Positions 1,135 through 38,098 of a stretch of DNA of 38,098 bases are shown here, piece by piece. This DNA comes from a virus, in IMG/VR virus record IMGVR_UViG_3300010885_047482, positions 1 to 38,098 of that record; one strand, given 5' to 3'. The notes beneath the pieces were generated by a model, which was not told the origin of the DNA, did not search any database, and was given only the letters and a program-made list of their open reading frames with translations. The position numbers and the translations under genes are program-made. Each line of letters starts with the position of its first letter. Position 1 is the first letter of the stretch.

Positions 1135-1140
1135 GTGACA

Positions 1141-1158: not shown

Positions 1159-1170
1159 GGGCAGCTACTC

Positions 1171-1180: not shown

Positions 1181-1188
1181 TACAGACT

Positions 1189-2313: not shown

Positions 2314-2330
2314 AGCGGCTTTTCTTTTTA
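2300..2330. terminator. Bidirectional intrinsic terminator
   Basis: AAAAGCCGC, a 6-nt loop containing the ATP-grasp stop codon, then GCGGCTTTT followed by T-rich sequence; A-rich sequence lies on the other side. It sits between two converging genes, so it can serve both strands. Confidence 0.85.
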
Positions 2331-2343
2331 AGTTAATGTCTAA

Positions 2344-2922: not shown

Positions 2923-2933
2923 GTGTATAAATT

Positions 2934-2973
2934 ATTGTTTAGTAAATTTTACTCAAAAAGATTCGCAAGTTTT
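2934..2973 (-). promoter_or_regulatory. Family A promoter (AAAACT-N16-TAAAAT-N4-TAAACAAT)
   Basis: Minus strand: AAAACT at 2968-2973, 16 nt, TAAAAT at 2946-2951, 4 nt, TAAACAAT at 2934-2941, then ATG at 2922. Box spacing is identical to the sites at 17175-17214 and 31583-31622. The upstream box overlaps the Nudix stop codon. Confidence 0.6.
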
Positions 2974-6767: not shown

Positions 6768-6777
6768 TTATTTATTA
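6768..6777 (-). promoter_or_regulatory. Family B late-type promoter (TAATAAATAA)
   Basis: Minus strand CTCTAATAAATAATAAAAAGTG, 19 nt before the ATG at 6748. The core includes the stop codon of the preceding glycosyltransferase gene. An A-run follows the core as in most family B sites. Confidence 0.6.
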
Positions 6778-7836: not shown

Positions 7837-8213
7837 AATACGTATTTTACTAGAACACCGTCATTTGGTTCTATGTCAATTCTGTTATTGTAAAAAATAT
7901 CCCAAGAGTCTGCGGCATACTGACCAATTCCGTATAATTCTCGTGGATGTTGCCAATCCGATTCAGACCATTCAGTACTAAATCGGATTAGAGCTTTCGC
8001 TCTGCGATTATAAAAACCAAGTGGACGAAGTAGTTCTGATAATTCTTGAGGATCTGCCTGCGACATTGCTATTGCAGTTGGATACCTTTCAAAAAGTTCA
8101 GCTCTAATTCCGTCCACTTGTACTCTTCTAGTACAGTTCAGGAGAATACAACATACTTGGGATTTCCAAGGGTCGTCATGATAAATCTCCTGAAGTAGTT
8201 CGAATGGGCTCAT
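7794..8213 (-). CDS. MBD4-like HhH-GPD DNA glycosylase
   Basis: 139 aa, nearly all one domain. It matches my recollection of the vertebrate MBD4 glycosylase domain along its length: H-D-D-P-W-K (12-17), L-L-N-C-T-R, E-L-F-E-R-Y-P-T, L-L-R-P-L-G-F-Y-N-R-R-A-K (61-73), the helix-hairpin-helix L-Y-G-I-G-Q-Y-A-A-D-S (93-103), and Asp118 in E-P-N-D-G at the position of the MBD4 catalytic Asp (H-P-E-D). MBD4 removes thymine or uracil from mismatches with G and some damaged pyrimidines; other glycosylases of this superfamily act on modified bases. It lies between an FkbM methyltransferase (stop and start adjacent at 8213/8214) and a glycosyltransferase, so DNA-base modification or its removal is worth considering. 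The fold is well supported; the substrate is not. Confidence 0.85.
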   Translation of the reverse strand: MSPFELLQEIYHDDPWKSQVCCILLNCTRRVQVDGIRAELFERYPTAIAMSQADPQELSELLRPLGFYNRRAKALIRFSTEWSESDWQHPRELYGIGQYAADSWDIFYNNRIDIEPNDGVLVKYVLWKRTKHSTPILAN

Positions 8214-9014
8214 TTACACGTTTTTAAATCCGGCAAAGTGAGTAATAAAATGCTTGTTTGTTCCAGCACTGCGGTTAACAAAAATTCTGTCGAAATTGTT
8301 TTCCATAATTGACATTACTTCGTTAAATTTCTCAGAACGATTTTCCAATAGCCAGCTGTAATGAAAATGGTATTCAACAATGAATAGTTTAATATGACTC
8401 CAGTCAGTAATTGACTTGATCATCTCGTATTCCATACCTTCAATATCCATCTTGACACAATTGACTTTCTTTAATACGTCATTGATATTTTCAGCCGGCA
8501 CAGTTACAACCTTACGACCTTTTACTGGATGGACAGAGTGTTTACCTGAATCTTGTGATAAGAAGAACTCTACTTCAGATTCATGGCCTGGGACAATCGC
8601 CTTTTCGATAATCTCGCAACGGCCCTGTACTCCATTCATTTCTAAATTTTGTTGAGCAAACTCGACATTATTATGAAACGGTTCGTAAGAGTAAACTTTC
8701 TTGATTTTTGGGAATTGGGTTAGCAAACGAGTTGCAAAGATACCAATATGAGCACCTGCGTCTAACCATGTATCTTCTTGATTAAGATCTTCAAGAGTTA
8801 ATGGATTACCGTCCTGTGCATAGTGGGGTAAAAATAGGGGCTTAAAATACTCTCCGCCAGTCGGCTTCATTGAGATATTTTGAGATACATTGAACTTTAT
8901 TTCATCTTCTGAACGAACTAGAAATTGATATTCATGATATTTTGTTTTCTTTTCGAAAACTTGAAGGGTGCCTGCTTCGCGAGCTTCTTCAATCGAGCAT
9001 AATACGTCTGCCAT
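8214..9014 (-). CDS. FkbM-family SAM-dependent methyltransferase
   Basis: 266 aa. Class I methyltransferase motifs are clear: motif I W-L-D-A-G-A-H-I-G-I-F (83-93), acidic end of strand 2 in Y-S-Y-E-P-F-H-N-N (108-116), and V-K-M-D-I-E-G-M-E-Y-E (187-197), which is the FkbM signature. The N-terminal 70 residues form the usual FkbM lead-in. FkbM enzymes O-methylate sugars or small molecules, so a glycan substrate is more likely than DNA; nearby glycosyltransferases agree with this. First gene of a three-gene operon driven by a family A promoter carrying a perfect palindrome. Confidence 0.9.
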   Translation of the reverse strand: MADVLCSIEEAREAGTLQVFEKKTKYHEYQFLVRSEDEIKFNVSQNISMKPTGGEYFKPLFLPHYAQDGNPLTLEDLNQEDTWLDAGAHIGIFATRLLTQFPKIKKVYSYEPFHNNVEFAQQNLEMNGVQGRCEIIEKAIVPGHESEVEFFLSQDSGKHSVHPVKGRKVVTVPAENINDVLKKVNCVKMDIEGMEYEMIKSITDWSHIKLFIVEYHFHYSWLLENRSEKFNEVMSIMENNFDRIFVNRSAGTNKHFITHFAGFKNV

Positions 9015-21925: not shown

Positions 21926-23872
21926 TTACGTATTTCCATAGAATTTTTGTAAAGTCTCCTTGTAATAGTCAACGTAGCTGGAATCTGCCTGCTGTGCAGT
22001 TGACGGCCTCTTTGCTACGCCTGACTGATTTAGATTTCTTAGTGTATCAAAATCGTACTTGGAATCTTTAGCTAAATATACTTCATTTAGGAACCTTGAG
22101 TAGACTTCTGCTAAATATTCTTTTGGCTGATTGTCAAGTTCTTCATTTGCAATCTCCCAGAAGTTTGGAGACTCAAAGAACGATGATGTGTTTACGCAAG
22201 TCATCGCCAAATCGTCATTACCACTTTGGCTGCGATATGAACCGTTTGATGATTTACCGAATGATCCAAGTTCGTGAATTGTCTTAAATTCATTTGGCAA
22301 GATCTTATTAACTGCTGCAAGATACTTAAATCTCTCGCAGAATTTTATCTTATTTGTCATTGTTAATTTTAGGCCAGGTTTCCAGGCTTGAGCAGATTCA
22401 GTATGCTTTGAAAAGACTAGCATGCCGTTCCAATAGGCTTCGTTTTTTGTGATTTTGTCCATCACATACTCGCCCTTATGATTTAATTCAATTAGCATCC
22501 TAACCTTGTCTGGATTAAATATGTTGAATATAATATGCTCTAGCGAATTGCAGAATTCGTTAATATCTTTTTTATTGGTTCGGAACGTTGCAACTTGCAC
22601 TAGCGCAAAGATATCAGTTTCATTTTTAATAAAGTCTTTTACCTGTTCCAACATTTTGATAGGTAGTGCAACGAACTTAAACACGTTAACTACTGAAAAG
22701 TCTCGACTCAGTCCATCGGCTGTATCTACCGAAATTACATAATAGCTGGGATCAGCCTTAATGTCATCTGGGCTTAACTTGTTGAAGTTAGGGTGAACTG
22801 AAATTCCGTCTAATAGTTCCAATCTATCTGGAGTTTGGGACCATTCTGGGATGACGTAGTCTGTGCGGAGATTAAAGATCTTTTTAAGATCCTTTGACGG
22901 TAATAAGAGCTTATCAGATGAGAAAAACTGTAATCCATATTCTTGATTAAAATCTTCTTCTGACCCCAAGTTTGCAATTGTCATCTTCTTCCAAGCATCA
23001 TCACGACCTGGCACCTGCCACCAGTCCACTCTTAGCGGAACGTATGCGTTCTTTTGCTCGAGAGCGTCCATGTAGATTTCATAAAAACGGTTCATTCCAT
23101 TTGGAGTTGAGGTTATTATAATCTTGGAATTGGATGAGGCTGAAATAGTAGGATAAATTGCTCGATAAAAGAAGTCAAGGTACGATGGATTGATGTGAGC
23201 AAACTCATCTATGTATAGTACGTGAATCGTAAAACCAATACCAGTATTTTTGGTAGTAGTACGACCAATTAAACGACACCCATTATCAAATTTCATGGAC
23301 ATTACGTTATTTGAAATGCAACCAGGTTTTAGGAAGAACGGTAAGTTCTCGAATACTGACTTGATTTTATCAAGTACCTCTTTGGTAGTAGACGCGATAT
23401 TGGCTACCGCTAATACGTTTTTATCGGTATGGAATAGTAGGTACCATGCAACGAATACGCCAGACATAACTGTCTTACCGATCTGACGACTTGCCATCAA
23501 GCAGTTAAAACGATTATTCTTAAACGATCTAATAATCTCTTCTTGATAGTCTCGAAGCGTGATTTGCTGAATTCCCTCTTCTGTCATTACCTGCGCGTAC
23601 TTGCTAGCAAAATAAACTGGATCAGCTTTACATCGCTTAATCTCGTCTATCTCTTCTGGCGTGTATTCGAAAACGATATTCGCTTTCTTCCAGACAGGAT
23701 CATTATCTTTAAATGGGGAATTCTTGATTGTCTTAACGTCAATTAAGCCGTTTTCGAAATCTTCAAGTAGTTGGTCTACTTTGGCTGTCGTCCAGATTGC
23801 GTTATTCTCTTGATCAAGATTTGATAGCTTAATCCTAGAGGACCCGCCTGCGTTTGTTAGAAAATCTTTCAT
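21926..23872 (-). CDS. terL: Terminase large subunit (gp17-like)
   Basis: 648 aa. Motor domain: Q motif near L-R-D-Y-Q (about 106-110), Walker A A-S-R-Q-I-G-K-T (127-134), Walker B V-L-Y-I-D-E-F (218-224) and coupling motif T-S-T-P-N-G (254-259). Nuclease domain: first metal-binding Asp in S-V-D-T-A-D-G (Asp383), Glu in L-I-E-L-N, and D-D-L-A-M-T near the C-terminus. All are intact, so this should be an active DNA packaging motor and headful nuclease. The start overlaps the probable small-subunit gene by 4 nt. The protein is similar in length and layout to T4 gp17 (610 aa). Confidence 0.97.
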   Translation of the reverse strand: MKDFLTNAGGSSRIKLSNLDQENNAIWTTAKVDQLLEDFENGLIDVKTIKNSPFKDNDPVWKKANIVFEYTPEEIDEIKRCKADPVYFASKYAQVMTEEGIQQITLRDYQEEIIRSFKNNRFNCLMASRQIGKTVMSGVFVAWYLLFHTDKNVLAVANIASTTKEVLDKIKSVFENLPFFLKPGCISNNVMSMKFDNGCRLIGRTTTKNTGIGFTIHVLYIDEFAHINPSYLDFFYRAIYPTISASSNSKIIITSTPNGMNRFYEIYMDALEQKNAYVPLRVDWWQVPGRDDAWKKMTIANLGSEEDFNQEYGLQFFSSDKLLLPSKDLKKIFNLRTDYVIPEWSQTPDRLELLDGISVHPNFNKLSPDDIKADPSYYVISVDTADGLSRDFSVVNVFKFVALPIKMLEQVKDFIKNETDIFALVQVATFRTNKKDINEFCNSLEHIIFNIFNPDKVRMLIELNHKGEYVMDKITKNEAYWNGMLVFSKHTESAQAWKPGLKLTMTNKIKFCERFKYLAAVNKILPNEFKTIHELGSFGKSSNGSYRSQSGNDDLAMTCVNTSSFFESPNFWEIANEELDNQPKEYLAEVYSRFLNEVYLAKDSKYDFDTLRNLNQSGVAKRPSTAQQADSSYVDYYKETLQKFYGNT

Positions 23873-24612: not shown

Positions 24613-24858
24613 TTAGTTTATGCGGTTTTCGTTTTTATCTAGTGCAGGATTAGCAAATATTTTGATCTGCTTAACTGCTTCAATGTGTTCGTAAATGTAG
24701 GTTTCAAGATAGCTCATGAAGCCGTCTAGTATTGGATTTGCACCAAACATTTGGTTAGACAAAGTCTTCTTTAGAATTGAGTCTTTGTACTTAAAACCCA
24801 GATGCAGGCGTTTGTCCTTGCGATTGTATATTGTCCAGTAGAGAGAATTTCTTATCAT
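24613..24858 (-). CDS. Hypothetical protein, 81 aa, between gp6-like and TerS
   Basis: Unrecognised. Aromatic and basic N-terminus (L-Y-W-T-I-Y-N-R-K-D-K-R-L-H-L-G-F-K-Y) and a helical centre (F-M-S-Y-L-E-T-Y-I-Y-E-H-I-E-A-V). The start overlaps the stop of the gp6-like gene by one base. The size suits a small baseplate or head-completion protein, but no motif identifies it. Confidence 0.65.
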   Translation of the reverse strand: MIRNSLYWTIYNRKDKRLHLGFKYKDSILKKTLSNQMFGANPILDGFMSYLETYIYEHIEAVKQIKIFANPALDKNENRIN

Positions 24859-26543
24859 TATACGATTCCTAATTTTTTACGAACTACTTTCTGTGATTTA
24901 ATTTCAATATTTAGTGCACCTAACGAGCCGTCAGATAGTCCAGTTTGATATGCATTACCGTTTCGATCGGACCAACCTCCTCTGATTACTGGGAATTCGG
25001 CTGATTTAATTATAATATCATTAAATTCGTCTAGTCCAACTCTATCAGTTTCACGTCTATTCGGCCTTTCCGTAAAAGCAACCTCATTCAGTTCAGATAG
25101 TATTGTGATGCTCACTGAGTCAACACCATTTACCTCCTCAACTATTTTAATTAGATCACTCTTTGGAACACGGTCGTTTCGGTTAAGTTTAATAAAGTAG
25201 TTGCCGACTGCGTCTGAAATATCTGACTTAATAATATCATTTGAAACATCGTCAAATGCAATAACGCTGATGTTTAGCACGTATTTAGTAATAACTGGAT
25301 CCAGCAAATTAATTTCACTTGAAATCATTTTTGTTCCAGAGCGTTCAATGTATTTTAGAAGCTCATTTTTTTGAAATTGAGTTAACGTGAATTTGGATAG
25401 AGCCAAGTTAAAATAGTCAGTTCCGGTTTTAAACATTTGCGAAACGTCTGGCACAAGAAATAAGTTAATCATTCTTGCGTCTAACTCATCTAGGAAAACT
25501 CTAATGGTTGAGAACATCTGCATTTTGTGAAGTAGAACTTCGTAATTATCAACGTTAACTAATGCAAAATTCTTTGATGCTTTTGGCGCGATTAATCGAG
25601 TTAAGGCAATCTCTTCAGGATCAACACCAAAACTTGGTGGACTTACTGTGTAAATATCAAAATATTCATTAAGGTTTATCTCTTCTCCGATTGGAGAAAA
25701 TGCAGTCTCAGCGAAAGTAAAGAATACTTGACTTGGATTATCAATTATGATATTTCCGCCAGCACCCTCTGATACTAAGTATTCAACAACGATTTCAGAA
25801 CCGGCTGCTGGAATTTTACCAAATGAACCGTTTCCAAAATAGATGTCTAATCCATTAGTTATCCCGGTTTTAGCAATGAAACCTTTTCCGCCGCGAGGCA
25901 TGTCTAACATTGACTCGTATTTGGTCCATTGTTCTCCATTGACATACACCTTAACCTTAAAATTATCGATGTAGTAATTATTTGGAAAACCTAACTGGTA
26001 ACTCTCAAGAGCTTGGCCCTTTCCAGTAAAAGTTTGGGTCTCAATTTGACCTTGTCGCAGGCTAAAAACTGTTGGGGGTTCATTGCCTGTCAAGTTTAAT
26101 CGGATTTCATCTTGCGGTAATTCAATAACGTAGGTTAGGCCGTTATTATCGCAAGTTACCTTGAACAGATCGTTTAATAGGGCTTTATTAACGGGTGGAG
26201 TTATTCCAGGTTTTCTAACTACTCTGATCTGGGCAGTTGCGCCAATTGCACGGCTTGGATTGTGGCCTGCTAAACTTGCTAATGAATAGATTGAAGATGG
26301 TCGAGTTGCCTCATTGATATTCAACTCAGTAATTGAGTCTTCAATATAATAAAATATTAATTGGCTTAAGTTTTCAAAAACAATCAACAACTGACCAAAT
26401 GGCGAAGCTGCCGTAAAGATGGTCTTTGCCTGCTTGAAACGATTCTGCAAGAATGTGATTGATTCTCCCAAGATATCGTTTATTCGGATCTTTAGGCTCG
26501 TGAAGAGTCTAAGTGATGTATTTTGACTTGATAGGTTTGCCAT
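24858..26543 (-). CDS. Baseplate wedge protein (gp6-like)
   Basis: 561 aa. N-terminal helical region (about 1-75) followed by Y-S-L-A-S-L-A-G-H-N-P-S-R-A-I-G-A-T-A-Q-I-R-V (about 85-107), the characteristic lead into the first beta domain of T4-like gp6. Middle beta-rich domain with G-N-G-S-F-G-K-I-P-A-A-G-S-E-I-V-V-E-Y, typical of gp6 / baseplate J-like wedge proteins. C-terminal part with V-N-V-D-N-Y-E-V-L-L and V-P-K-S-D-L-I-K-I-V-E-E-V-N-G-V-D-S-V, also found in this fold. gp6 forms the ring that joins baseplate wedges. First gene of the packaging operon, behind a family B promoter. T4 gp6 is 660 aa. Confidence 0.8.
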   Translation of the reverse strand: MANLSSQNTSLRLFTSLKIRINDILGESITFLQNRFKQAKTIFTAASPFGQLLIVFENLSQLIFYYIEDSITELNINEATRPSSIYSLASLAGHNPSRAIGATAQIRVVRKPGITPPVNKALLNDLFKVTCDNNGLTYVIELPQDEIRLNLTGNEPPTVFSLRQGQIETQTFTGKGQALESYQLGFPNNYYIDNFKVKVYVNGEQWTKYESMLDMPRGGKGFIAKTGITNGLDIYFGNGSFGKIPAAGSEIVVEYLVSEGAGGNIIIDNPSQVFFTFAETAFSPIGEEINLNEYFDIYTVSPPSFGVDPEEIALTRLIAPKASKNFALVNVDNYEVLLHKMQMFSTIRVFLDELDARMINLFLVPDVSQMFKTGTDYFNLALSKFTLTQFQKNELLKYIERSGTKMISSEINLLDPVITKYVLNISVIAFDDVSNDIIKSDISDAVGNYFIKLNRNDRVPKSDLIKIVEEVNGVDSVSITILSELNEVAFTERPNRRETDRVGLDEFNDIIIKSAEFPVIRGGWSDRNGNAYQTGLSDGSLGALNIEIKSQKVVRKKLGIV

Positions 26544-26643: not shown

Positions 26644-27012
26644 GGGGGTGCTTGGATTTGACGCGGATGGTTCAAGTATGCTCGCACGCCGAGGATGATG
26701 CTAAGACTCGCTAAAACGTATCAAAACGATAAGTGGAAACACTAACTTCTGGAGCCTAGTTAACGCTGGCGTTAGCACTCCGGTTACTGAAGAGCTTTTA
26801 GCTGCATAAGTAACCAAGCGGCAACTGCTTGACCGAACCAAAGTTGCAAAACCAGCATGGCGTAGCGGCCAAGTCTAACCGTTACCGACTTTTAGCTCTA
26901 AGTCGTTAAAGAATGAGATAGTTGGTCCAGTTAGAAAATGGGACTAAGCGTGTGAACGAGAGTTTACTCGAAAATCTTGCGGACACGGGTTCGACTCCCG
27001 TCACCTCCACCA
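26644..27012 (+). ncRNA. ssrA: Phage-encoded tmRNA (transfer-messenger RNA)
   Basis: 369 nt. The 5' end GGGGGUG pairs with the 3' CACCUCC to form a 7-bp acceptor stem with G3-U, the alanine identity pair; CCA is encoded. The T arm GGACACGGGUUCGACUCCCGUC and the 5' GGAUUUGACG segment are typical of tmRNA. The tag frame opens at GGA (26735), after AUAAGU, and closes with UAA at 26807-26809. It reads G-N-T-N-F-W at the start and T-E-E-L-L-A-A at the end, 24 residues. Gly as first tag residue is usual in Bacteroidota. It would rescue stalled ribosomes and mark the products for degradation with SmpB; no smpB is seen here. A terminator follows. Confidence 0.95.
26735..26809 (+). other. tmRNA tag-peptide reading frame, 24 codons
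   Basis: In-frame codons from GGA to GCA then TAA. The last residues Leu-Leu-Ala-Ala resemble the A-L-A-A degron that ClpXP-type proteases recognise. The tag is more than twice the length of the usual bacterial tag (8 to 11 residues). The resume codon is assigned by alignment to the E. coli and Bacteroidota pattern, not by experiment. Confidence 0.75.
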
Positions 27013-27829: not shown

Positions 27830-28611
27830 TGAAGTACTTATTAGAATTTAAAACATTTACAATTACTGAAGGCGGTAACGCTTTTCCTGATGCACAAAGC
27901 CTTGATCGTGGCGCGGTTGAACCGGCTTTTGCTAAATTCCAAGATGCAATGTCAAATGTATTTGGCAAAGCTGAACTTGAATTAATTGGTTCATGGAAAC
28001 AAAAAGAAGTATCTGGTGATCTAGATACTCTATTCTATTCTGACTTAACTCTTCCTGAGATCTCAGCAAAAGTTCAAGAAGCAGGATACGAAACCAAGAT
28101 ATTTTATGGATTTAATATTGTGTCCGTTAAATTTGAAATTTCACCAGAGCATTTTGTTCAATTTGATATGTTCGTTAGGCCGATGGACACCAACCGTGAT
28201 GTAAACGATTTGTTCTATAAATCAACTGATGAAGAACGGTATTCAACAAAGCATCGTGTCTTTTTGATCTTTTGTGCGCTAGATTCTATGAAGTTTGATA
28301 AGATTGAAAAAGACGGTGTGTTAACTCATTTTAAAGGTTATATGCTTCGACCTGACGGTCTCTATCAATTCACGAAAGAGATGAAGAAGATTAATTATAA
28401 GATTATGGATCGCCAAAAGTTAACCGACGACCTTGATCAAATTTCGTTGATCTTATTTGGTAAAGTCTATCCGTATCAACAATGGAATACTTACGAAAAG
28501 ACTCTCACCTTGCTTGAGAAGAATCCTAAATTAGACATGAAGACTATTCTTGACGAATATCGTGCTAAATTGGATGAAGAAGGTCTTGTGGTTCCAGGTG
28601 GAATCAGTTAA
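27829..28611 (+). CDS. Pol-beta-type nucleotidyltransferase, candidate packaged protein
   Basis: 260 aa. Nucleotidyltransferase fold signature: I-G-S-W (Gly54-Ser55), then G-D-L-D (Asp64, Asp66), and third Asp in V-Q-F-D-M-F-V (Asp113) after a beta hairpin. All three metal-binding Asp are present, so it should be active. The N-terminus M-K-Y-L-L-E-F-K-T-F-T-I-T-E/G-G looks like the T4 capsid-targeting peptide with an I-T-E/G protease site, suggesting that it may enter the head and be injected. Substrate (tRNA, protein or small molecule) unknown. Downstream of and overlapping gp15; the stop codons of this gene and the convergent tube-like gene overlap by 4 nt with no terminator between. Confidence 0.75.
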   Translation: MKYLLEFKTFTITEGGNAFPDAQSLDRGAVEPAFAKFQDAMSNVFGKAELELIGSWKQKEVSGDLDTLFYSDLTLPEISAKVQEAGYETKIFYGFNIVSVKFEISPEHFVQFDMFVRPMDTNRDVNDLFYKSTDEERYSTKHRVFLIFCALDSMKFDKIEKDGVLTHFKGYMLRPDGLYQFTKEMKKINYKIMDRQKLTDDLDQISLILFGKVYPYQQWNTYEKTLTLLEKNPKLDMKTILDEYRAKLDEEGLVVPGGIS

Positions 28612-29222
28612 TCAAATTCCAATTCCAAATCAAAATTGAAATACTTAAAATCTACAGTAAATGTCTGAAATTGTGGAGTAACTGACGAGTACGATAGAGT
28701 TATTGCACTCATTTGAGTAATCATTGGTCGGTTAAAGATAATTGAACTTACTCCATACCCTTCATTATTTAAAAGAGTTAATCTGATCGGGCTAAAATAC
28801 GGATGGTTGCCGTGTCTGATTGGACTATTTGTTAGAGCTTGACCCAACGAATTGCCTGTATTCTTTTCGCTTGTGTTTGCAGGCTCAAGGTAATTAAGTA
28901 ACGTATCCATCATGATGAAATAGTTTAAGTAGGCATCAGTTAACTTAAAAGTTAATTTAAGATCCCTATTAAACATGTCAGCAATGGGCTTTGAAGATTG
29001 AACTTCTTGTATTTTACCAAGAGTTCTGGTCTGAGTCGGCAATTGGCTTGTTAATCCAGGAAAGGTTACGCTCTGAATAGTTGATGCCATAAAATCTGAA
29101 ATTGATTTATACGGCAATAACAGATTACGATAGTATTTCTCATACTTCGCATTGACCGCATCATTAAAGAAATCTTGCGGTAAATTAACTAAAAAGCTGT
29201 TCTGTCTAGAATTAAGTATCAT
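28608..29222 (-). CDS. Tail tube-type protein (gp19/gp54-like)
   Basis: 204 aa. The layout matches T4 gp19-fold proteins: S-V-T-F-P-G-L near residue 53 (compare the C-K-A-T-A-L-P-A-G turn of gp19), D-L-K-L-T-F-K-L-T-D-A-Y-L-N-Y-F at about 87-102 (compare W-T-V-T-V-M-N-D), then P-I-R-L-T-L-L-N-N-E-G, and a C-terminal S-V-T-P-Q-F-Q-T-F-T-V-D-F-K-Y-F-N-F (compare N-E-I-Q-T-F-E-V-T-L-A-L-D-Y). It is longer than gp19 (163 aa), so a tube initiator or terminator role (gp54-like) fits as well as the main tube. It is transcribed with the glycosyltransferase fusion, 10 nt downstream. Confidence 0.68.
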   Translation of the reverse strand: MILNSRQNSFLVNLPQDFFNDAVNAKYEKYYRNLLLPYKSISDFMASTIQSVTFPGLTSQLPTQTRTLGKIQEVQSSKPIADMFNRDLKLTFKLTDAYLNYFIMMDTLLNYLEPANTSEKNTGNSLGQALTNSPIRHGNHPYFSPIRLTLLNNEGYGVSSIIFNRPMITQMSAITLSYSSVTPQFQTFTVDFKYFNFDLELEFD

Positions 29223-29232
29223 ACAGAATTAT

Positions 29233-31575
29233 CTATATGAGGCCGAGAGCGGTCTTTATTTTATCAATTACCGTTGATGTTTTGATTGTTCTAGAGCACT
29301 CAAACATTCGGTGAGTTCCTTTGTGTACTGGACACCAGTTCCAATCAGCCGGATCAAGCTTGTGAGTATTGAAACAGCCTGAACATTTGCCGGCTGGTGC
29401 ACAAACTCTATGAGTGTTCTCAACCGTTTCGGTGTAATCATACGAGAATCCTGAAATAAGGACAAGTGGGGTCGTGGTTGCCCAAGCCAACCAGCTTAGT
29501 CCACTACCAATTCCTACAAAGACTTGAGACTCTTCAAGTTCACGAATGACATTCTCGATTGGACCTGACGCTAATTTGCGAACGCTAGTTGGATGAGAAT
29601 TACCCATGAAGCCATCTTCTTCTCTTGACACCAGCACTACTTCATAACCGGTTTCCTTACACCAGTCAACTACTTCTTGCCAGCCGTCTGGATTATTCCA
29701 GTATTTTGCTTGGCATGTGCCGTGAATTGCGATTGCGATCTGTTTTTTCTTTTCAACCTTTGGAATCGCAAGTAGAGGTTTAGTCTCTTTATACTCAAGA
29801 CCCAAGATATCAAATGCACATTTTTGCATTGCCTGATCCTTGACTTCTTTGACGTTTCGGTTTAGATCAATTTTATGATCTTGATCGTAATACCAGCCAA
29901 TATTGTACATTGCAACAATATTATCAACAACATCGCCAGGTTTAATGAACTCAATTTCCGGATACTGTTTTTCAAAAAGTTGGTTTAGATGAGTTGAACA
30001 AATTACCTTGCAACCGTGCTTCTTACGAAACTCTTCAACTGCTGGAAACCAGGCCAAACTATCGCCAAGAGAAGATGAATCTACTGAAATATAGACTCTA
30101 CGATCTTTTAGGCTAATTGACTCGTCTAGGACAAGTTGACCGCTTTCTTTGTGAGTTACCTTAACTCTCCAATCAATATAGTATCGCTTATTTGACTTGA
30201 CCCACATATTACGGGTGATTGTGTCCTTGTGCTCGACCTTGCCAGTTTTCTTATTAATAAACTCAACTAAGTATTCGCCTGGGGCTCCCCCAGTTATCTC
30301 TACGTGTGGTCCATTTACGAAATGATAGTTAATAGTCAAGTCTTTTGCACGCTTTAGATTCACCTCTCTGATGTGACTTGAACGTTCATCAATATGATCA
30401 GCTGCAAGCCGTGCAACTCTATCCCAGTTAAAATCTTGATGGATCTTTTGAGCATCAGCTAGCGCCTTCTCCTTATGTGATTTATAATTTAAGTAGGCAT
30501 CTCTCATTGCTCTACGTAAGTCGTTAAAATCAGGCTCATAATAATTGCCAACGATATCTGCAGTAGTTACGGTCGGTTTATCTTCCGCTGAGCCAAGCGC
30601 TGAGCGTTCGCCAACAATTTTGACTGGAATACCTTTGCCTTCAGCAAACTCCATTTGGCCTGAGCACTCTGAATAGATTGATGGAGTTCCGCAAGCCATT
30701 GCCTCGATTAGTGGCAGATTCCAGCCTTCACTACGCGCACATGATACAAATACGTTAACTGACTTGATTAGGTCAACGTACTCTTTTCTTGGCGGCATGT
30801 GTAATACTTTAATACGGTCGTCTTTGAATTCGTATTTTGCTAAGCGCTCTTCGGTTGTTTGACAACCGTCTGCACTAAAGCCCCATGGATTATCAGCAGA
30901 TAAGATTAGATCTACAGGTTCGTCCGCTGAAAATTCTTCCAAGAAAGCTCTAACTATTTCGGTTGTAGATTTGCGGTAATCCCAACGACCGAATAGGCCG
31001 AATGTAAATCGGTCTTCTCCGGTTAATGGATGAACGACATTTTCAGGAAAGAATGTCTCAATATCAACTCCTTCTGGGATTACAAATATTTTATCAGCTG
31101 GGTAGCCCTGTTTGACTGTGCAATCTCGTTGCCATTTAGACGGAACCCAAACTTCATCAAATTCTAATAACTTATCAAAGAACTCTGATGGCTGTAGCGT
31201 TGATTCCCAAACGTTATAGGCAATCTTGTAATTATCGTAATTGTGATAAAAGTAATGATGATTAGTTTCGTTTAGAATTAGGTCGACATGAGTCTGGCCG
31301 AGGTTTGGCCAAGATTGATATACTTTATGATCGCTAAGAGTACGATCTCCATTCCATAGAGATTGCTCAACAAGTAAAGACTTGATCTGATCTGTCATAT
31401 ACGCCTCACCATTATGAGGTTCGTCAGACATACCCTCCCACGAAGATCCTACTGTGTAGTTTCGGATTTCAAGAGGAAGCCTCTCTGCTAATTTTGTGAA
31501 AAATGATTGAGCATGATTATTATAACCGGTATTGCCAATAAAAGATGTGTGGACCTTGAGTTTTAACTTTGACAC
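29233..31575 (-). CDS. Fused GT4 glycosyltransferase and TibC/Aah-like O-heptosyltransferase
   Basis: 780 aa, GTG start. Residues 1-405 are a GT-B group 1/GT4 enzyme: F-G-L-F-G-R-W-D-Y-R-K-S and S-E-G-W-N-L-P-L-I-E-A-M-A-C-G-T-P (donor-binding Glu present). Residues of about 415-780 match the autotransporter O-heptosyltransferase family (TibC, Aah): a beta domain with M-W-V-K-S-N-K-R-Y-Y-I-D-W, then S-V-D-S-S-S-L-G-D-S-L-A-W, Q-A-K-Y-W-N-N-P-D-G-W-Q-E-V-V-D, G-S-G-L-S-W-L-A-W-A, and four cysteines C-x2-C-x13-C-x11-C, which bind iron in TibC. Those enzymes add heptose to Ser of repeat proteins. The neighbouring upstream gene is a giant Ser/Thr-rich fibre, the obvious acceptor (inference). Confidence 0.9.
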   Translation of the reverse strand: MSKLKLKVHTSFIGNTGYNNHAQSFFTKLAERLPLEIRNYTVGSSWEGMSDEPHNGEAYMTDQIKSLLVEQSLWNGDRTLSDHKVYQSWPNLGQTHVDLILNETNHHYFYHNYDNYKIAYNVWESTLQPSEFFDKLLEFDEVWVPSKWQRDCTVKQGYPADKIFVIPEGVDIETFFPENVVHPLTGEDRFTFGLFGRWDYRKSTTEIVRAFLEEFSADEPVDLILSADNPWGFSADGCQTTEERLAKYEFKDDRIKVLHMPPRKEYVDLIKSVNVFVSCARSEGWNLPLIEAMACGTPSIYSECSGQMEFAEGKGIPVKIVGERSALGSAEDKPTVTTADIVGNYYEPDFNDLRRAMRDAYLNYKSHKEKALADAQKIHQDFNWDRVARLAADHIDERSSHIREVNLKRAKDLTINYHFVNGPHVEITGGAPGEYLVEFINKKTGKVEHKDTITRNMWVKSNKRYYIDWRVKVTHKESGQLVLDESISLKDRRVYISVDSSSLGDSLAWFPAVEEFRKKHGCKVICSTHLNQLFEKQYPEIEFIKPGDVVDNIVAMYNIGWYYDQDHKIDLNRNVKEVKDQAMQKCAFDILGLEYKETKPLLAIPKVEKKKQIAIAIHGTCQAKYWNNPDGWQEVVDWCKETGYEVVLVSREEDGFMGNSHPTSVRKLASGPIENVIRELEESQVFVGIGSGLSWLAWATTTPLVLISGFSYDYTETVENTHRVCAPAGKCSGCFNTHKLDPADWNWCPVHKGTHRMFECSRTIKTSTVIDKIKTALGLI

Positions 31576-31582
31576 AGAATAG

Positions 31583-31622
31583 GGTGTTTATAAGCTTATA
31601 CTCAAGGTCCTCATCAGGTTTT
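31583..31622 (-). promoter_or_regulatory. Family A promoter (AAAACC-N16-TATAAG-N4-TAAACACC)
   Basis: Minus strand AAAACC at 31617-31622, 16 nt, TATAAG at 31595-31600, 4 nt, TAAACACC at 31583-31590, then GTG start at 31575. It contains the 12-bp palindrome TATAAGCTTATA (31589-31600). Confidence 0.65.
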
Positions 31623-32025
31623 ATTCGCAAGGGGTAAACCTAGCAATCATTCCTCCACCGTCATACTGGAAAGAATATCCGCCTATTTCCGAGTCTGACT
31701 CAACGTAATAGTATTGGCCCTGCTGTAAGTTTTCAAACGGCATAGATACTTCGGCATCGAGCCATATTCCAGAAAAGCCGTCGTCAATATACAATCTGCC
31801 CGGGTCAACTGGTATTCCGTTTTTATTGGTTGAGCATGCCGAACCAACATCCAAGAATCCTCCATTGCCTGGAATCATTCCGAATAGCACAACCACATAA
31901 GAGTCACCGCCGCCACTAACACCAGTTAAGTCGACGCCGATCACATTTGAGCTGTTTTGGAGAGAGGCCCCGCTTAGTTCAACTCCGTTGCTTAAGTCTA
32001 CTCCGTTAATGTTTACCTTAGCCAT
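31621..32025 (-). CDS. Small fibre-associated protein, 134 aa
   Basis: Unrecognised. Gly, Asp, Ser and Val-rich, with two near-repeats of V-D-L-(S/T)-(N/G)-V and strand-like segments S-Y-V-V-V-L-F-G-M-I-P and Q-Q-G-Q-Y-Y-Y-V-E-S-D. It resembles the C-terminal knob of the collagen-like protein in style: both contain a V-x-V-L-L/F-F-G motif. So it may be a related tip domain or co-folding partner. It starts 14 nt after the fibre stop and is probably co-transcribed with the fibre. Confidence 0.68.
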   Translation of the reverse strand: MAKVNINGVDLSNGVELSGASLQNSSNVIGVDLTGVSGGGDSYVVVLFGMIPGNGGFLDVGSACSTNKNGIPVDPGRLYIDDGFSGIWLDAEVSMPFENLQQGQYYYVESDSEIGGYSFQYDGGGMIARFTPCE

Positions 32026-32039
32026 TTATATTCCATTTT

Positions 32040-35000
32040 TTAAGGCAATCTAACCCAAGTGTTATCCGGCCAGAATCTTAATATTGGCCAGTCCATTGAG
32101 AATACGTAACCGATAATTCTGACATATTCACCTGAGCCAGTTGGCGGAACTATATCGATCTCACCTGGTGTAGTCTGCATGTACATAGGCTTGCCATTAA
32201 TATAACCATTTCCATTGCACTGTTCGTTTTGAGCAAAGCCAAACAGCAACACGTGTACTTGTTGTCCTTGGTTTGCATCATTTAGCGCAATACCTAACAT
32301 GTTTTCAGACCTAGGGCGGTTTGTACCAGTTGCGTCTGCTTTATACCAGTTAGGCTCCATATTACCATTACCTTGTGTGAATCCGTCCATTACGACTAGA
32401 TCATGCTTTTTAATGGCGTCATCACTCCAACCGACCATGGTTTCGCCAGTATAATTGTCTGCAGTGTAATTAGCAAGAGTTACTATATTGATTACTGATG
32501 CAAATCCGCCAAGCGGTGTCTCAGTGCCAAGGCTTGCTATTGCAGGTAGTTCCTGAGAAAGAGTGGTTCCGTCGAATTGTAGATTCTGTTCTCCATTTAA
32601 TTCTGGAGAAGTACCAGTTGCAGTAACGACATAATTATCGATATTGTTGCTTAGACCTACACCTCCTCCGCCTGCTGGAGAAGTACCTGAACTACCTGAA
32701 GTACCGGATGCTCCACTTGAACCTGACGTACCTGATGTACCTGGTGCTCCAGCTGCTCCACTTGAACCTGAAGTTCCACTTACACCACTTGAACCTGAAG
32801 TTCCACTTACACCACTTGAACCTGAAGTTCCACTTACACCACTTGTTCCAGACGTTCCATAGAACGGAGATATTACGCTCCATGTTGCGCCATTGTATTG
32901 GTATACACGGTTTGCGACAGTATCAATATATAGATCCCTATTGTTAAACGGTCCTGGATATCCGCCTGGAGGCGCGGTGTTTCCAACATATAATTGTTGT
33001 AATCCACTTGTTCCTGAAGAACCTGACGTACCTGCTGCACCAGCTCCTCCACTAGAACCTGAAGTTCCTGAAGAACCTGACGTACCTGGAGAACCAGCTG
33101 CTCCACTTGAACCTGATGTTCCAGAAGAACCTGAAGAACCTGATGTACCCGGTGATCCAGCTGCTCCGCTTGAACCTGATGTTCCGCTTGATCCACTTGA
33201 ACCTGAAGTTCCTGAAGAACCTGACGTACCTGGAGAACCAGCTGCTCCACTTGAACCTGATGTACCGCTTGAGCCGGACGAGCCTGAAGTACCTGAGCTA
33301 CCGGAAGATCCAGAAGTTCCGCTTGAACCGGATGTTCCAGAAGAACCTGATGAACCTGATGTTCCTGAGCTTCCGCTTGTTCCTGAGTTACCTGAAGAAC
33401 CTGAAGTTCCAGAAGAACCTGAAGAACCTGATGTACCGCTTGAGCCGGACGAGCCTGAAGTACCTGAGCTACCGGAAGATCCAGAAGTTCCACTTGAACC
33501 TGACGAACCTGATGTTCCGCTTGCTCCGCTTGAACCTGAAGTTCCAGAAGAACCGCTTGAACCAGATGTTCCACTTGCTCCGCTTACTCCACTTGATCCA
33601 GATGTACCACTTGAGCCTGAAGTTCCAGAAGAACCGCTTGAACCGGATGTACCCGATGCTCCACTAGAACCTGATGTTCCTGAAGAACCAGATGTTCCAG
33701 AAGAACCACTTGATCCTGATGTTCCAGAAGAACCTGACGTACCAGATACTCCACTTGAACCGGACGTTCCAGAAGATCCACTTGAACCTGATGTACCACT
33801 TGAACCTGAGCTACCGGATGTTCCTGAATTACCTGAAGAACCTGAAGTACCCGAAGAACCACTTGAACCTGATGTTCCACTAGAGCCAGAAGAACCAGAT
33901 GTACCTGAGCTACCGGATGTTCCAGAGTTACCAGAAGAACCTGAAGTTCCACTAGAACCAGAAGAACCGCTAGTTCCGCTTGAACCGCTAGAACCTGAAG
34001 TTCCAGAAGATCCGCTTGTTCCAGAGTTACCAGAAGAACCTGAAGTTCCTGAAGAACCGCTAGAGCCTGATGTTCCAGAAGACCCAGAGCTTCCGCTTGT
34101 TCCAGAAGAACCACTTGAGCCTGAAGTTCCTGAAGAACCTGAAGTTCCTGAAGAACCTGAAGTTCCTGAAGAACCACTAGAGCCTGATGTTCCGCTTGAG
34201 CCGGAAGAACCACTAGATCCCGAAGAACCTGATGTACCAGAAGAACCACTTGTTCCTGAGTTACCTGAAGAGCCTGAAGTACCAGAAGAACCGCTTGAGC
34301 CAGAAGAACCTGATGTTCCTGAGCTACCTGAAGAACCTGAAGTTCCACTTGAACCACTTGAGCCCGAAGTTCCACTTGAACCTGAGCTACCAGAAGTTCC
34401 AGAAGAACCTGATGTACCACTTATTCCTGAAGAACCGCTAGTTCCTGAAGAACCAGACGATCCTGATGTGCCTGATGAGCCGGAGCTTCCACTTGTTCCT
34501 GAAGATCCTGATGTTCCGCTTGAGCCTGAACTTCCGCTTGTTCCTGAAGAACCTGATGTTCCGCTTGAGCCTGAACTTCCGCTTGTTCCAGAAGAACCAC
34601 TAGAACCTGATGTTCCTGAGCTACCTGAAGTTCCTGAGCTACCGCTTGAACCAGAAGTTCCAGAAGAACCGCTTGAACCGCTTGTACCTGATGAGCCTGA
34701 GCTACCGCTTGTTCCCGAAGAACCTGATGTTCCTGAAGAACCTGAAGTCCCGGAGTTACCTGAAGAACCTGAAGTTCCAGAAGAACCACTTGAGCCGGAT
34801 GTACCTGAGCTACCAGATGTCCCTGAACTACCTGAGCTTCCGCTAGTTCCAGAAGAACCGCTTGAACCAGAAGTTCCTGAAGAACCGGACGTTCCAGACG
34901 AACCACTTGTTCCTGAGTTACCTGAAGAACCTGAAGTACCGGAAGATCCAGATGAGCCTGATGTACCAGAGCTTCCGCTAGAGCCGGATGTTCCTGAAGA

Positions 35001-38000
35001 ACCTGAAGTTCCCGAGTTACCTGAAGAACCCGAAGTTCCAGAAGAACCTGACGAACCGCTTGTTCCGCTTGATCCACTTGAACCTGATGTGCCTGAAGAA
35101 CCTGATGTGCCTGAGCTACCGCTTGTTCCTGAAGAACCTGAACTACCGGAAGTACCACTTGAGCCTGAAGAGCCTGATGTGCCTGAGCTACCGCTTGTAC
35201 CGCTTGAACCTGAGCTACCAGATGTTCCAGAAGAACCTGATGATCCTGAAGTTCCAGAAGAACCAGACGTTCCGCTTGAACCGGATGAACCAGAAGTTCC
35301 AGAAGAACCGCTTGATCCTGAAGTTCCACTTGATCCAGAAGTTCCCGAGCTACCGCTAGAACCAGATGTTCCGCTTGAGCCTGAAGAACCTGACGTTCCC
35401 GAGCTACCAGAAGTTCCAGAAGAACCTGAAGAACCAGAAGTACCTGAAGAACCTGAGCTACCAGATGTTCCGCTTGAACCTGAAGAACCTGATGTACCAC
35501 TAGAACCCGAAGTTCCTGAAGATCCAGAAGTTCCACTAGAACCACTTGAACCTGATGTTCCTGACGAACCTGAACTACCACTTGTTCCAGAAGAACCAGA
35601 AGTTCCAGAAGAACCGCTTGAACCAGACGTTCCAGAAGAACCTGAACTACCGCTAGTTCCAGAAGAGCCTGAAGTTCCACTTGAACCTGAAGTTCCACTT
35701 GATCCAGAAGATCCGCTAGTTCCTGAAGAGCCTGATGAACCACTAGTTCCAGAAGAACCGCTTGAGCCAGATGTTCCAGAAGAACCTGAAGTGCCTGAGC
35801 TTCCAGAAGATCCAGAAGTTCCGCTAGAACCGCTTGAACCTGATGTTCCTGACGAACCTGATGTACCACTTATACCTGATGAACCACTAGTTCCTGAAGA
35901 ACCAGACGATCCTGATGTGCCTGATGTACCTGAGCTACCAGATGTTCCACTTGAACCGGATGTTCCACTTGAACCTGACGAACCAGATGTACCTGAGCTA
36001 CCACTCGTTCCTGATGAGCCTGAGCTACCGCTAGTTCCTGACGAACCGCTTGAACCTGATGTGCCTGAGCTACCGCTTGTACCTGAAGAACCTGAGCTAC
36101 CAGACGTACCAGAAGAACCGCTTGATCCGCTAGTTCCTGAAGAACCGCTAGAACCTGAAGTTCCAGAAGAACCACTAGAACCAGAAGTCCCAGATGATCC
36201 TGAACTACCTGAAGTACCAGAAGAACCGGATGTACCATTTATACCTGAAGATCCTGAAGTTCCAGAAGAACCACTAGAACCAGAAGTCCCAGATGATCCT
36301 GAACTACCTGAAGTACCAGAAGAACCGGATGTACCATTTATACCTGAAGATCCAGAAGTTCCAGAAGAACCGCTTGAACCTGATGTGCCTGAGCTACCGC
36401 TTGTTCCACTTGAACCTGAAGTTCCGCTTGAACCTGATGATCCACTTGTTCCACTTGAACCTGATGAACCTGATGTTCCAGAAGAACCTGATGTACCAGA
36501 TGAGCCTGAGCTACCGGAAGTTCCACTTGAACCAGAAGATCCAGAAGTTCCAGAAGAACCCGATGTACCGCTTGATCCTGATGTTCCTGACGAACCGGAA
36601 GTTCCAGAAGAACCGCTTGAACCTGAAGTTCCAGAAGAACCGCTTGATCCTGAAGTTCCAGAAGAACCGCTTGATCCTGAAGTTCCGCTTGAGCCGGAAG
36701 AACCTGATGTTCCTGAGGTTCCGCTTGCTCCAGATGCTCCGCTTGAACCTGACGTTCCACTTGAACCTGACGTTCCACTTGATCCTGAGCTACCAGAAGT
36801 ACCTGAAGAACCTGAGCTTCCACTTGTCCCTGAAGAACCAGATGTACCGCTTGAACCTGATGTCCCAGAAGAACCTGAGCTACCTGAACTACCACTTGAT
36901 CCTGAAGAACCTGATGTTCCAGACGAACCTGAACTACCACTTGATCCTGAAGAACCTGATGTACCAGATGAACCTGAAGTTCCCGAGCTTCCACTTGTTC
37001 CTGACGAACCTGAACTGCCGCTAGTTCCTGAGCTACCGCTAGAGCCAGACGTACCTGAGCTACCACTAGAACCTGATGTGCCTGAGCTGCCTGATGTACC
37101 TGAAGAACCAGACGTTCCTGAAGAACCTGAGCTGCCTGAAGTTCCACTAGAACCTGAAGAACCACTTGAACCTGATGTTCCCGAGCTACCAGAAGTTCCA
37201 GAAGAACCTGAAGATCCTGACGTACCAGAAGAACCTGATGTACCTGAAGTACCTGAGCTACCACTAGTTCCGCTTGATCCAGAAGAACCACTTGTTCCTG
37301 ACGAACCGCTAGAGCCTGACGTACCCGATGAACCTGAAGTTCCACTTGAGCCTGATGTTCCCGAGCTACCACTAGAGCCAGAAGTTCCTGACGAACCTGA
37401 TGAACCTGATGTACCTGAGCTACCACTTGTTCCAGAAGATCCAGATGTTCCGCTAGAACCAGAAGTTCCAGAAGAACCACTTGAACCAGAAGTTCCAGAA
37501 GATCCAGAGCTTCCTGATGTTCCGCTTGAGCCAGACGTTCCTGAAGAACCGCTTGAGCCAGATGTACCGCTTGATCCGCTAGAACCTGATGTACCAGAAG
37601 AACCAGAAGTACCTGAGCTACCGCTAGTTCCGCTTGAGCCAGATGTACCGCTTGAACCCGAAGATCCTGAAGTACCAGAAGAACCGGATGAACCTGAGCT
37701 ACCACTTGTTCCTGAAGAACCTGATGTGCCTGACGATCCGGAAGTTCCTGATGAACCAGAAGATCCTGAAGTTCCAGAAGAACCAGAGCTACCTGAAGTT
37801 CCAGAAGATCCGCTAGAACCTGAAGTTCCTGAGCTACCGCTAGTTCCGCTTGAACCTGAGCTACCGGAAGTTCCTGATGAACCGGATGTTCCGCTTGAAC
37901 CACTTGAACCGGAAGTTCCTGAGCTACCGCTAGAACCAGAAGTTCCTGATGAACCGGATGTTCCGCTTGAACCACTTGAACCGGAAGTTCCTGAGCTACC

Positions 38001-38098
38001 GCTAGAACCTGAAGTTCCTGAGCTACCGCTAGTTCCGCTTGAACCTGAGCTACCGGAAGTTCCTGATGAACCAGATGTTCCTGAAGTTCCACTAGATC
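32040..38098 (-). CDS. Giant collagen-like tail fibre protein (5' end beyond window)
   Basis: About 2019 codons are visible without a stop; the start lies past the right edge. The frame reads Gly-Thr-Ser and Gly-Ser-Ser triplets with a few Gly-Val-Ser, Gly-Ala-Ala, Gly-Ser-Pro and Gly-Ile-Asn, about 566 triplets from the edge to 33003. A 48-residue insert follows with D-L-Y-I-D-T-V-A-N-R-V-Y-Q-Y-N-G-A-T-W, a module common in phage tail proteins. A second short collagen block (32683-32859) and a knob of about 200 residues ending W-V-R-L-P come last. Such proteins form long trimeric shafts with a receptor-binding tip. Proline is nearly absent, so the helix would need other stabilisation, for example Thr glycosylation. 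Other frames here are open only because the repeat has period nine. Confidence 0.88.
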   Translation of the reverse strand, partial: SSGTSGTSGSSGTSGSSGSSGTSGSSGTSGSSGSSGTSGSSGSSGTSGSSGTSGSSGSSGTSGSSGSSGTSGSSGTSGSSGSSGTSGSSGTSGSSGSSGTSGSSGSSGTSGSSGSSGTSGSSGTSGSSGTSGSSGSSGSSGTSGSSGSSGTSGSSGTSGSSGTSGSSGTSGSSGSSGTSGSSGSSGTSGSSGTSGSSGSSGTSGSSGSSGTSGSSGTSGSSGTSGSSGTSGSSGSSGTSGSSGSSGTSGSSGTSGSSGTSGSSGSSGTSGSSGSSGTSGSSGTSGTSGSSGTSGSSGSSGTSGSSGTSGSSGSSGSSGTSGSSGSSGTSGSSGTSGSSGTSGSSGSSGTSGSSGSSGTSGSSGSSGTSGSSGTSGSSGTSGSSGSSGSSGSSGTSGSSGSSGSSGSSGSSGTSGSSGTSGSSGTSGSSGSSGTSGSSGSSGTSGSSGTSGSSGASGASGTSGTSGSSGSSGTSGSSGSSGTSGSSGSSGTSGSSGSSGTSGSSGTSGSSGTSGSSGTSGSSGSSGTSGSSGSSGTSGSSGTSGSSGSSGTSGSSGSSGTSGSSGTSGSSGTSGSSGSSGTSGSSGINGTSGSSGTSGSSGSSGTSGSSGSSGTSGSSGINGTSGSSGTSGSSGSSGTSGSSGSSGTSGSSGSSGTSGSSGSSGTSGSSGSSGTSGSSGTSGSSGSSGTSGSSGSSGTSGSSGTSGSSGSSGTSGSSGTSGSSGTSGTSGSSGSSGTSGSSGISGTSGSSGTSGSSGSSGTSGSSGSSGTSGSSGTSGSSGSSGTSGSSGSSGTSGSSGSSGTSGSSGTSGSSGTSGSSGSSGTSGSSGSSGTSGSSGTSGSSGSSGTSGSSGSSGTSGSSGTSGSSGTSGSSGSSGTSGSSGSSGTSGSSGSSGTSGSSGTSGSSGSSGTSGSSGSSGTSGSSGTSGSSGSSGTSGSSGSSGTSGSSGTSGSSGSSGTSGSSGSSGTSGSSGTSGSSGSSGTSGSSGSSGTSGSSGTSGSSGTSGSSGSSGTSGSSGSSGTSGSSGNSGTSGSSGTSGSSGSSGTSGSSGSSGTSGSSGNSGTSGSSGTSGSSGTSGSSGSSGTSGSSGSSGTSGSSGTSGSSGSSGTSGSSGNSGTSGSSGTSGSSGTSGSSGSSGTSGSSGSSGTSGSSGSSGTSGSSGTSGSSGSSGTSGSSGSSGTSGSSGTSGSSGSSGTSGSSGTSGSSGSSGTSGSSGSSGTSGSSGISGTSGSSGTSGSSGSSGTSGSSGSSGTSGSSGSSGTSGSSGSSGSSGTSGSSGNSGTSGSSGTSGSSGSSGSSGSSGTSGSSGSSGTSGSSGTSGSSGTSGSSGSSGTSGSSGSSGTSGSSGSSGTSGSSGNSGTSGSSGTSGSSGSSGTSGSSGSSGTSGSSGNSGTSGSSGTSGSSGSSGTSGSSGSSGTSGSSGNSGTSGSSGSSGTSGSSGSSGTSGSSGVSGTSGSSGTSGSSGSSGTSGSSGTSGSSGASGTSGSSGSSGTSGSSGTSGSSGVSGASGTSGSSGSSGTSGSSGASGTSGSSGSSGTSGSSGSSGTSGSSGSSGTSGSSGSSGTSGSSGNSGTSGSSGTSGSSGSSGTSGSSGTSGSSGSSGTSGSSGSSGTSGSSGAAGSPGTSGSSGTSGSSGSSGTSGSSGAAGSPGTSGSSGSSGTSGSSGAAGSPGTSGSSGTSGSSGGAGAAGTSGSSGTSGLQQLYVGNTAPPGGYPGPFNNRDLYIDTVANRVYQYNGATWSVISPFYGTSGTSGVSGTSGSSGVSGTSGSSGVSGTSGSSGAAGAPGTSGTSGSSGASGTSGSSGTSPAGGGGVGLSNNIDNYVVTATGTSPELNGEQNLQFDGTTLSQELPAIASLGTETPLGGFASVINIVTLANYTADNYTGETMVGWSDDAIKKHDLVVMDGFTQGNGNMEPNWYKADATGTNRPRSENMLGIALNDANQGQQVHVLLFGFAQNEQCNGNGYINGKPMYMQTTPGEIDIVPPTGSGEYVRIIGYVFSMDWPILRFWPDNTWVRLP
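32761..32841. repeat. Three perfect 27-bp tandem repeats in the short collagen block
   Basis: The unit encodes Gly-Val-Ser-Gly-Thr-Ser-Gly-Ser-Ser on the minus strand and occurs at 32761-32787, 32788-32814 and 32815-32841 with no mismatch, so the duplication is recent. Confidence 0.9.
36154..36351. repeat. Perfect 99-bp tandem duplication
   Basis: Copies at 36154-36252 and 36253-36351 are identical, including the unusual Gly-Ile-Asn triplet. This equals 33 residues or 11 collagen triplets, so the frame and register are kept. Confidence 0.9.
37867..38010. repeat. 72-bp tandem duplication, one mismatch
   Basis: Copies at 37867-37938 and 37939-38010 differ only in the last base. This equals 24 residues or 8 triplets, again in register. 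Confidence 0.85.

Follow-up and report, generated by a model that had tools for sequence, protein, structure and literature searches.

Protein O-heptosyltransferases of the TibC/Aah type (the BAHT family, TIGR04414; PDB 4RAP, 4RB4) act on beta-helical adhesins (PMC4358343). In Clostridioides difficile, SgtA, which is encoded beside bclA3, O-glycosylates Thr and Ser of the BclA3 collagen repeat (PMC7157674), and mycobacteriophage virions are glycosylated by phage-encoded enzymes (Freeman 2023, cited in PMC12619734). There is precedent for an enzyme that glycosylates the collagen repeat encoded next to its own gene, for BAHT activity on beta-helices and for phage virion glycosylation; we found no literature joining BAHT enzymes, collagen and phages, in a search that mostly left aside subscription journals and bioRxiv. 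Here we describe a locus at the end of a 38,098-bp viral stretch from IMG/VR (IMGVR_UViG_3300010885_047482; the whole stretch analysed is called the window below), in which the gene for a GT4-TibC fusion glycosyltransferase lies close to that for a Ser/Thr-rich collagen-like tail fibre. We consider it probable that this phage encodes the O-heptosylation of its own fibre, with the fused GT4 domain extending the sugar, because enzyme and Ser/Thr collagen are found together again in many phages and in some bacteria.

The phage enzymes share with TibC and Aah the whole-domain fold, the catalytic Asp, the phosphate Lys/Thr, the heptose-contacting Trp, the iron-finger Cys residues, the thumb-tip hydrophobics and Phe368; they differ in being fused to GT4 (or GT2, GT9 or methyltransferases) and in having a collagen, not an SLS beta-helix, as neighbour. 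With SgtA-BclA3 and the BclA-type exosporium collagens the locus has in common a glycosyltransferase gene beside a collagen-like gene and, by prediction, O-glycosylation within G-X-Y, but SgtA belongs to another family (O-linked N-acetylglucosamine transferase), targets Pro-containing GPT triplets and works on a spore, not a phage. In the mycobacteriophages, as far as the citing paper describes them, the targets are the capsid and the tail-tube C-termini, the enzymes are others, and neither collagen nor a heptose pathway is involved. Pelagimyophages (PMC7029224) likewise carry heptose activation and glycosyltransferases in a host-recognition region; modification of host lipopolysaccharide (LPS) was read there, whereas here the link is to a protein O-heptosyltransferase.

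The fusion enzyme and the collagen-like fibre

The window holds a tailed-phage structural region. A 253-kb contig, G001, matches its positions 1-32242 at 99.98% and breaks inside the collagen; the source is a very large aquatic phage, a jumbo phage by this match, and we use G001 as a proxy for the greater part of its genome. Three minus-strand genes close the window in the order fibre, 134-residue open reading frame and 780-residue enzyme, with gaps of 14 and 45 bases, which places the enzyme two genes downstream of the fibre, as the initial annotation had it. Their features are:

32040-38096 (minus): Ser/Thr collagen-like tail fibre, C-terminal 2018 residues (open reading frame and translation, Pfam Collagen, PHROG tail-fibre, triplet census)
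33051-38090 (minus): longest uninterrupted run, 560 G-X-Y triplets, almost entirely GSS/GTS; putative acceptor region for the glycan
32679-32858 (minus): second collagen run, 20 triplets (triplet census)
32040-32663 (minus): fibre tip, non-collagen C-terminal domain (sequence homologues)
31621-32025 (minus): predicted 134-residue open reading frame between fibre and enzyme
29233-31575 (minus): GT4-TibC fusion glycosyltransferase, 780 residues (family searches, alignment, models)
30388-31311 (minus): GT4 domain, residues 89-396 (PHROG 2170)
29251-30339 (minus): TibC/Aah-type O-heptosyltransferase domain, residues 413-775 (TIGR04414, model)
30061-30063 (minus): codon of Asp505, equivalent of the TibC catalytic Asp110 (alignment with TibC)
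29296-29385 (minus): iron-finger segment with Cys731, 734, 748 and 760 (alignment)

By family match and model, the C-terminal part of the enzyme is a BAHT-family (TIGR04414) domain with heptose transfer as its predicted activity. It matches TIGR04414 at 275 bits against a cut-off of 200, over profile positions 10-373 of 374, and its four Cys residues, spaced C-x2-C-x13-C-x11-C, are invariant across 54 aligned domains; the GT4 domain carries the invariant E-x7-E motif at residues 283-291. An earlier description of a GT4 domain joined to a full TibC-type domain with a four-Cys iron site is thus borne out. Asp110, Thr226, Lys230, Trp305 and the four Cys (TibC numbering) are kept in the window and in 56/56 phage domains, and Pro300 is replaced by Gly. 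The sites of Phe265, Val266 and Phe368, which TibC needs for its dodecamer (PMC4358343), are Phe, Met and Phe in the window, although the model shows no thumb strands. An AlphaFold model of the whole fusion with nine relatives was only middling (predicted local distance difference test score, pLDDT, 73.6), with TibC chains as its top Foldseek matches, and we therefore modelled the TibC part alone from a 45-row alignment (pLDDT 95.5). This model superposes on TibC (4RAP) with Z 41.6 and 2.2 A over 359 residues, its residues 2-370 aligning with 4RAP 21-390, so that the N-terminal barrel is included along with the GT-B catalytic fold. Since the neighbour is a collagen and no autotransporter with an SLS repeat was found among the window proteins in Pfam, NCBIfam and PHROG searches, we class the domain as BAHT-family but not autotransporter-specific.

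TibC's kinship within GT9 with the LPS heptosyltransferases would suit a different role: the substrate would be surface glycans of the host (LPS or O-chain), with a block to superinfection as one possible benefit, and the nearness to fibres would reflect only the tendency of phage host-recognition regions to gather such genes; the rfaE and glycosyltransferases of pelagimyophages have been read as host-glycan modification (PMC7029224). The enzyme, however, has the N-terminal barrel, the iron finger and the family match of a protein-modifying BAHT enzyme. The LPS heptosyltransferases (WaaC/WaaF, GT9) align with the model over the catalytic part only (Z about 19), and their family models score far below cut-off, with 27 bits for heptosyltransferase I where 185 are required. 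Together with the comparisons with Pro-collagen phages and with bacteria given below, this makes a host-glycan role quite unlikely in our judgement.

Fusion partners elsewhere include GT2 (L022) and GT4, the latter in a 1227-residue protein of the isolated Microcystis phage Mel-JY01 (L027) that is annotated as an FkbM methyltransferase; such variety is as expected of a glycan-building line, to judge from the domain matches. A single 1242-residue phage protein (L025:5177-8905) combines GT9, GT4, TibC-type and weak FkbM methyltransferase domains, and four phages (G037, G040, G080 and G043, the contigs of L199, L202, L266 and L208) each hold at least two TibC-type stretches, in tandem or close together.

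The fibre reading frame is open at the window edge: it has no start codon inside the window, and its 5' end lies outside. Read from its long uninterrupted G-X-Y repeat, the product is a collagen-like protein, with 585 triplets in three runs, 332 of them GSS and 220 GTS, Ser at the Y position in 573 of the 585, and 41 stretches above the Pfam Collagen (PF01391) cut-off. More than 560 GTS/GSS triplets with almost no Pro had been reported; Pro occurs four times, and the count holds for G-X-Y triplets in general (560 uninterrupted), while those that are strictly GTS or GSS number 552. Ser, Thr and Gly of the repeat are encoded by mixed codons, which speaks against slippage of a single DNA unit and for a repeat held at the protein level. 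Homologues of the fibre tip stand at the ends of Ser/Thr collagens in other phages (L011, L040, L104). The 134-residue open reading frame matches no family in Pfam, NCBIfam or PHROGs and is seen only in the window's phage species.

Two further collagen-like frames were noted. At the other end of the window, the open reading frame 3-1076 contains a short GTS/GSS/GTA-like linker at 495-569 (minus), with Pfam Collagen below cut-off, and the Mel-JY01 record (L027, PP395634.1) opens with a 1016-residue open collagen frame (1-3052, plus), over most of which the record instead places a hypothetical protein on the other strand. Mel-JY01 has a GTS/GSS collagen of 162 triplets.

Pairing of enzyme and Ser/Thr collagen in phages and bacteria

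A TibC-domain profile recovered at least 589 viral stretches, and 99 phage loci were examined. G-X-Y runs of at least eight triplets, nearly all of the GSS/GTS type, flank the enzyme in 43 of the 99, and a collagen is near 37 of 62 fusion enzymes compared with 6 of 37 that stand alone. From the collagen side, a DNA pattern of the GTSGSS type alone served to draw 50 contigs, each 25 kb or longer, and a Pro-collagen pattern another 50: TIGR04414 is present in 19/50 of the former and 0/50 of the latter. Among contigs of 20-100 kb the figures are 12/40 and 0/37 (p = 2e-4; since the sets hold related phages, p values here are not strictly independent). Across 16 large phage records the distance from TibC to Ser/Thr collagen is shorter than for randomly placed positions (combined p = 0.003), and it is within 8 kb in 10, even though G001 counts against the effect because it ends inside the collagen repeat. 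Gene order varies, with the nearest collagen upstream and co-directional in 21/39 cases and convergent in 12/39. The co-occurrence check proposed in the initial annotation therefore comes out strongly positive, and the absence of the enzyme from the Pro-collagen phages argues against a role in host-glycan modification.

The pairing extends to bacteria. Among 80 bacterial TibC loci, 16 fall outside the canonical clade and are nearest the phage enzymes (L108-L122, L127); they include Methylobacter, Methylomicrobium, Polaromonas and gammaproteobacterial records. A Ser/Thr G-X-Y run lies within 3 kb in 13/16 of these and in 0/64 of the others. The neighbours that we inspected are mostly small proteins with a signal peptide or lipobox (judged by eye) and 10-40 GTS/GSS triplets, often less than 1 kb away, and no phage tail genes were evident around the inspected loci. 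In L108, L112, L113, L115, L116, L118-L122 and L127 the TibC-type genes stand beside small secreted or lipobox proteins that are mostly GTS/GSS. By its gene context, a bacterial TibC enzyme with a small GTS/GSS protein would be an enzyme-glycoprotein pair, apparently not described before, of methanotrophs and further proteobacteria. That the same clade in bacteria has small secreted GTS/GSS proteins as neighbours, with no tail module evident, again tells against host glycans as the substrate. A tree of 84 domains sets the canonical clade (14 rows, support 100) apart without a collagen neighbour, and gains and losses of the collagen neighbour require 10 changes on it, so that a single chance event passed on by descent does not account for the association, although much of it is inherited.

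We know of no TIGR04414 member that acts on DNA. Modification of phage DNA or nucleotides, given that many phage glycosyltransferases modify DNA (PMC12619734), is extremely improbable here and would leave the collagen association unexplained. An unlikely but better alternative is that the enzyme is a protein O-glycosyltransferase with another phage acceptor (a non-collagen Ser/Thr-rich fibre, a baseplate or a tail protein), the collagen being a bystander in the tail module: stand-alone phage TibC enzymes occur 3' of Ser/Thr-rich open reading frames of about 2000 residues without collagen, and some enzymes lie tens of kb from a collagen. The enrichment with Ser/Thr over Pro collagen, and the bacterial pairs in which GTS/GSS is the sole neighbouring repeat, are not what a bystander would lead one to expect.

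Several observations weigh against O-heptosylation of the collagen fibre. Kinship among the phages inflates the co-occurrence counts; the 16/64 division of the bacterial loci was chosen after the matches were seen; and 31/50 GTS/GSS-collagen contigs (fragments, though not in every case) lack a TibC gene. Collagen Ser/Thr content is equal on contigs with and without a TibC gene, so the enzyme leaves no signature in composition. No collagen lies near the members of one clade of phage TibC enzymes that stand alone, and the enzyme is far from the collagen in G041, G025, G028 and G061. Finally, a collagen acceptor would be new, since TibC acts on beta-helical repeats.

Candidate heptose donor genes and the nucleotide pocket

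In 28 of the 99 phage loci, TibC is followed on the same strand by a nucleotidyltransferase of about 130 residues, a PfkB kinase or both. In most cases 0-22 bases separate the end of the TibC match from the start of the nucleotidyltransferase, or about 400 where a cupin gene comes between them, and in G001 a cupin, a protein of no assigned family, the nucleotidyltransferase and the kinase stand in a row at 108-111 kb. Such nucleotidyltransferases are commoner with TibC (13/33 TibC-positive against 6/45 TibC-negative records, p = 0.015). The nucleotidyltransferase has rfaE_dom_II (TIGR02199) as its best family, at 114 bits against 68 for glycerol-3-phosphate cytidylyltransferase, and the kinase rfaE_dom_I (TIGR02198), at 113 bits against 55 for ribokinase.

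These are the two parts of HldE (RfaE), the ADP-heptose synthase of LPS biosynthesis, to whose E. coli halves the phage kinase and nucleotidyltransferase are 30% and 39% identical; the kinase keeps the R-x-x-PEAP-x-PV stretch of HldE. The phages, however, have two separate genes, and in G001 both products fall below the HldE equivalog cut-offs (113 against 345 and 114 against 181.5 bits), so we suggest from these likenesses that they work like HldE and make no claim of family membership. GmhA isomerase is missing from this set: G001 has no SIS_2 match, and SIS/GmhA is absent from nearly all records searched. The cupin, which has a weak likeness to mannose-6-phosphate isomerase, might be a heptose-phosphate isomerase in place of GmhA, or a host isomerase might serve. 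It lies between TibC and the nucleotidyltransferase in L582 (2818-3198), L039, L040, L048, L053 and L021, and is 80% identical between phages. A "cytidylyltransferase-like" protein near the Mel-JY01 enzyme was considered as HldE-like and rejected, as family searches show no HldE likeness.

Stand-alone TibC genes followed by the heptose nucleotidyltransferase and kinase recur in L046, L049, L051, L056, L090 and similar loci, where TibC itself lies behind a GT4-plus-methyltransferase gene and a Ser/Thr-rich non-collagen open reading frame of about 2000 residues. Ser/Thr-rich fibres and repeats near stand-alone TibC (e.g. the STISGG repeats of L041) gave no SLS target-repeat match and no useful NCBIfam or Pfam match.

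Two residues bear on the donor. Arg286 of TibC contacts adenine and makes the donor ADP-specific (PMC4358343); it is present in 14/14 canonical bacteria, but is Val in the window and is kept in 1/56 phage domains (non-Arg in 55/56). All phage nucleotidyltransferase rows (37, some duplicates) have Arg or Lys at the position of the Arg in the cytidylyltransferase motif RTEGISTT, a position filled by Phe in E. coli HldE and by Tyr in two neighbours of TibC from Lachnospiraceae. Because of these two features we raise, tentatively and as something rather unlikely, a phage route to its own donor, in which the pair would make CDP-heptose, not ADP-heptose, with the TibC pocket changed to match and fibre coating independent of host ADP-heptose. 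The route may thus possibly hold new donor chemistry.

Proposed pathway and its place in phage biology

That the phage glycosylates its own fibre with a TibC-type enzyme, as first proposed from the letters of this stretch, agrees with co-occurrence in both directions, placement, the tree, the bacterial context and the adjacent heptose activation, all of it genomic evidence. We infer the acceptor, sugar, product, order of steps and purpose as follows. The phage kinase and nucleotidyltransferase, with a host or phage isomerase and phosphatase, would make nucleoside diphosphate (NDP)-heptose, so that the donor would be at least partly phage-made. In the infected cell the TibC domain, perhaps acting as a ring as TibC does, would move heptose from NDP-heptose to Ser/Thr of the Gly-Ser/Thr-Ser repeat, after which the fused GT4 domain would add a further sugar. 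Methyltransferases elsewhere in the genome may cap the glycan. The likeliest purpose would be to make a collagen without proline and hydroxyproline stiffer, better hydrated and better protected.

A candidate capping enzyme lies with a second gene in the window:

8214-9014 (minus): FkbM methyltransferase (Pfam, 49 bits), possible glycan-capping enzyme
6775-7836 (minus): 353-residue protein of no assigned family that goes with the FkbM gene (homologues in G024, G057)

The initial annotation had named these as FkbM and a second glycosyltransferase that could extend or cap the sugar. The first identification stands; the second is unproven, the product of 6775-7836 having no match in Pfam, NCBIfam, PHROGs or PDB sequences. 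The FkbM protein has homologues at 92% and 74% in two TibC/collagen phages (G057 and G024, respectively) in which both genes are kept together, a weak co-occurrence that gives a faint hint of FkbM as the capping enzyme of the fibre sugar.

Other genes place the locus among phage structural functions (PHROG-type family search of window proteins):

21926-23872: terminase
24858-26543: baseplate wedge protein
28608-29222: tail tube

A tmRNA (transfer-messenger RNA) gene with the tag GNTNFWSLVNAGVSTPVTEELLAA lies within this structural region at 26644-27012 (plus). The window also encodes a YheC/D-type ATP-grasp protein (1189-2313, plus) and a short endonuclease III-like HhH-GPD protein (7794-8213, minus) that overlaps the open reading frame at 6775-7836.

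If phage-encoded O-heptosylation of the fibre is correct, numerous aquatic phages (the enzyme is encoded in at least 589 viral stretches) would carry their own protein O-glycosylation machinery for a structural fibre, and some of them would also bring donor synthesis. It would help to explain how viral and bacterial collagens function without proline or hydroxyproline, add collagen to the beta-helices as a substrate class of TibC-type enzymes, and provide a small set of enzymes with which glycosylated collagen could be made. An isolate, Mel-JY01, is among the carriers, which makes direct testing possible. Some auxiliary genes of marine phages now regarded as "LPS-modifying" would then be re-assigned to modification of the virion.
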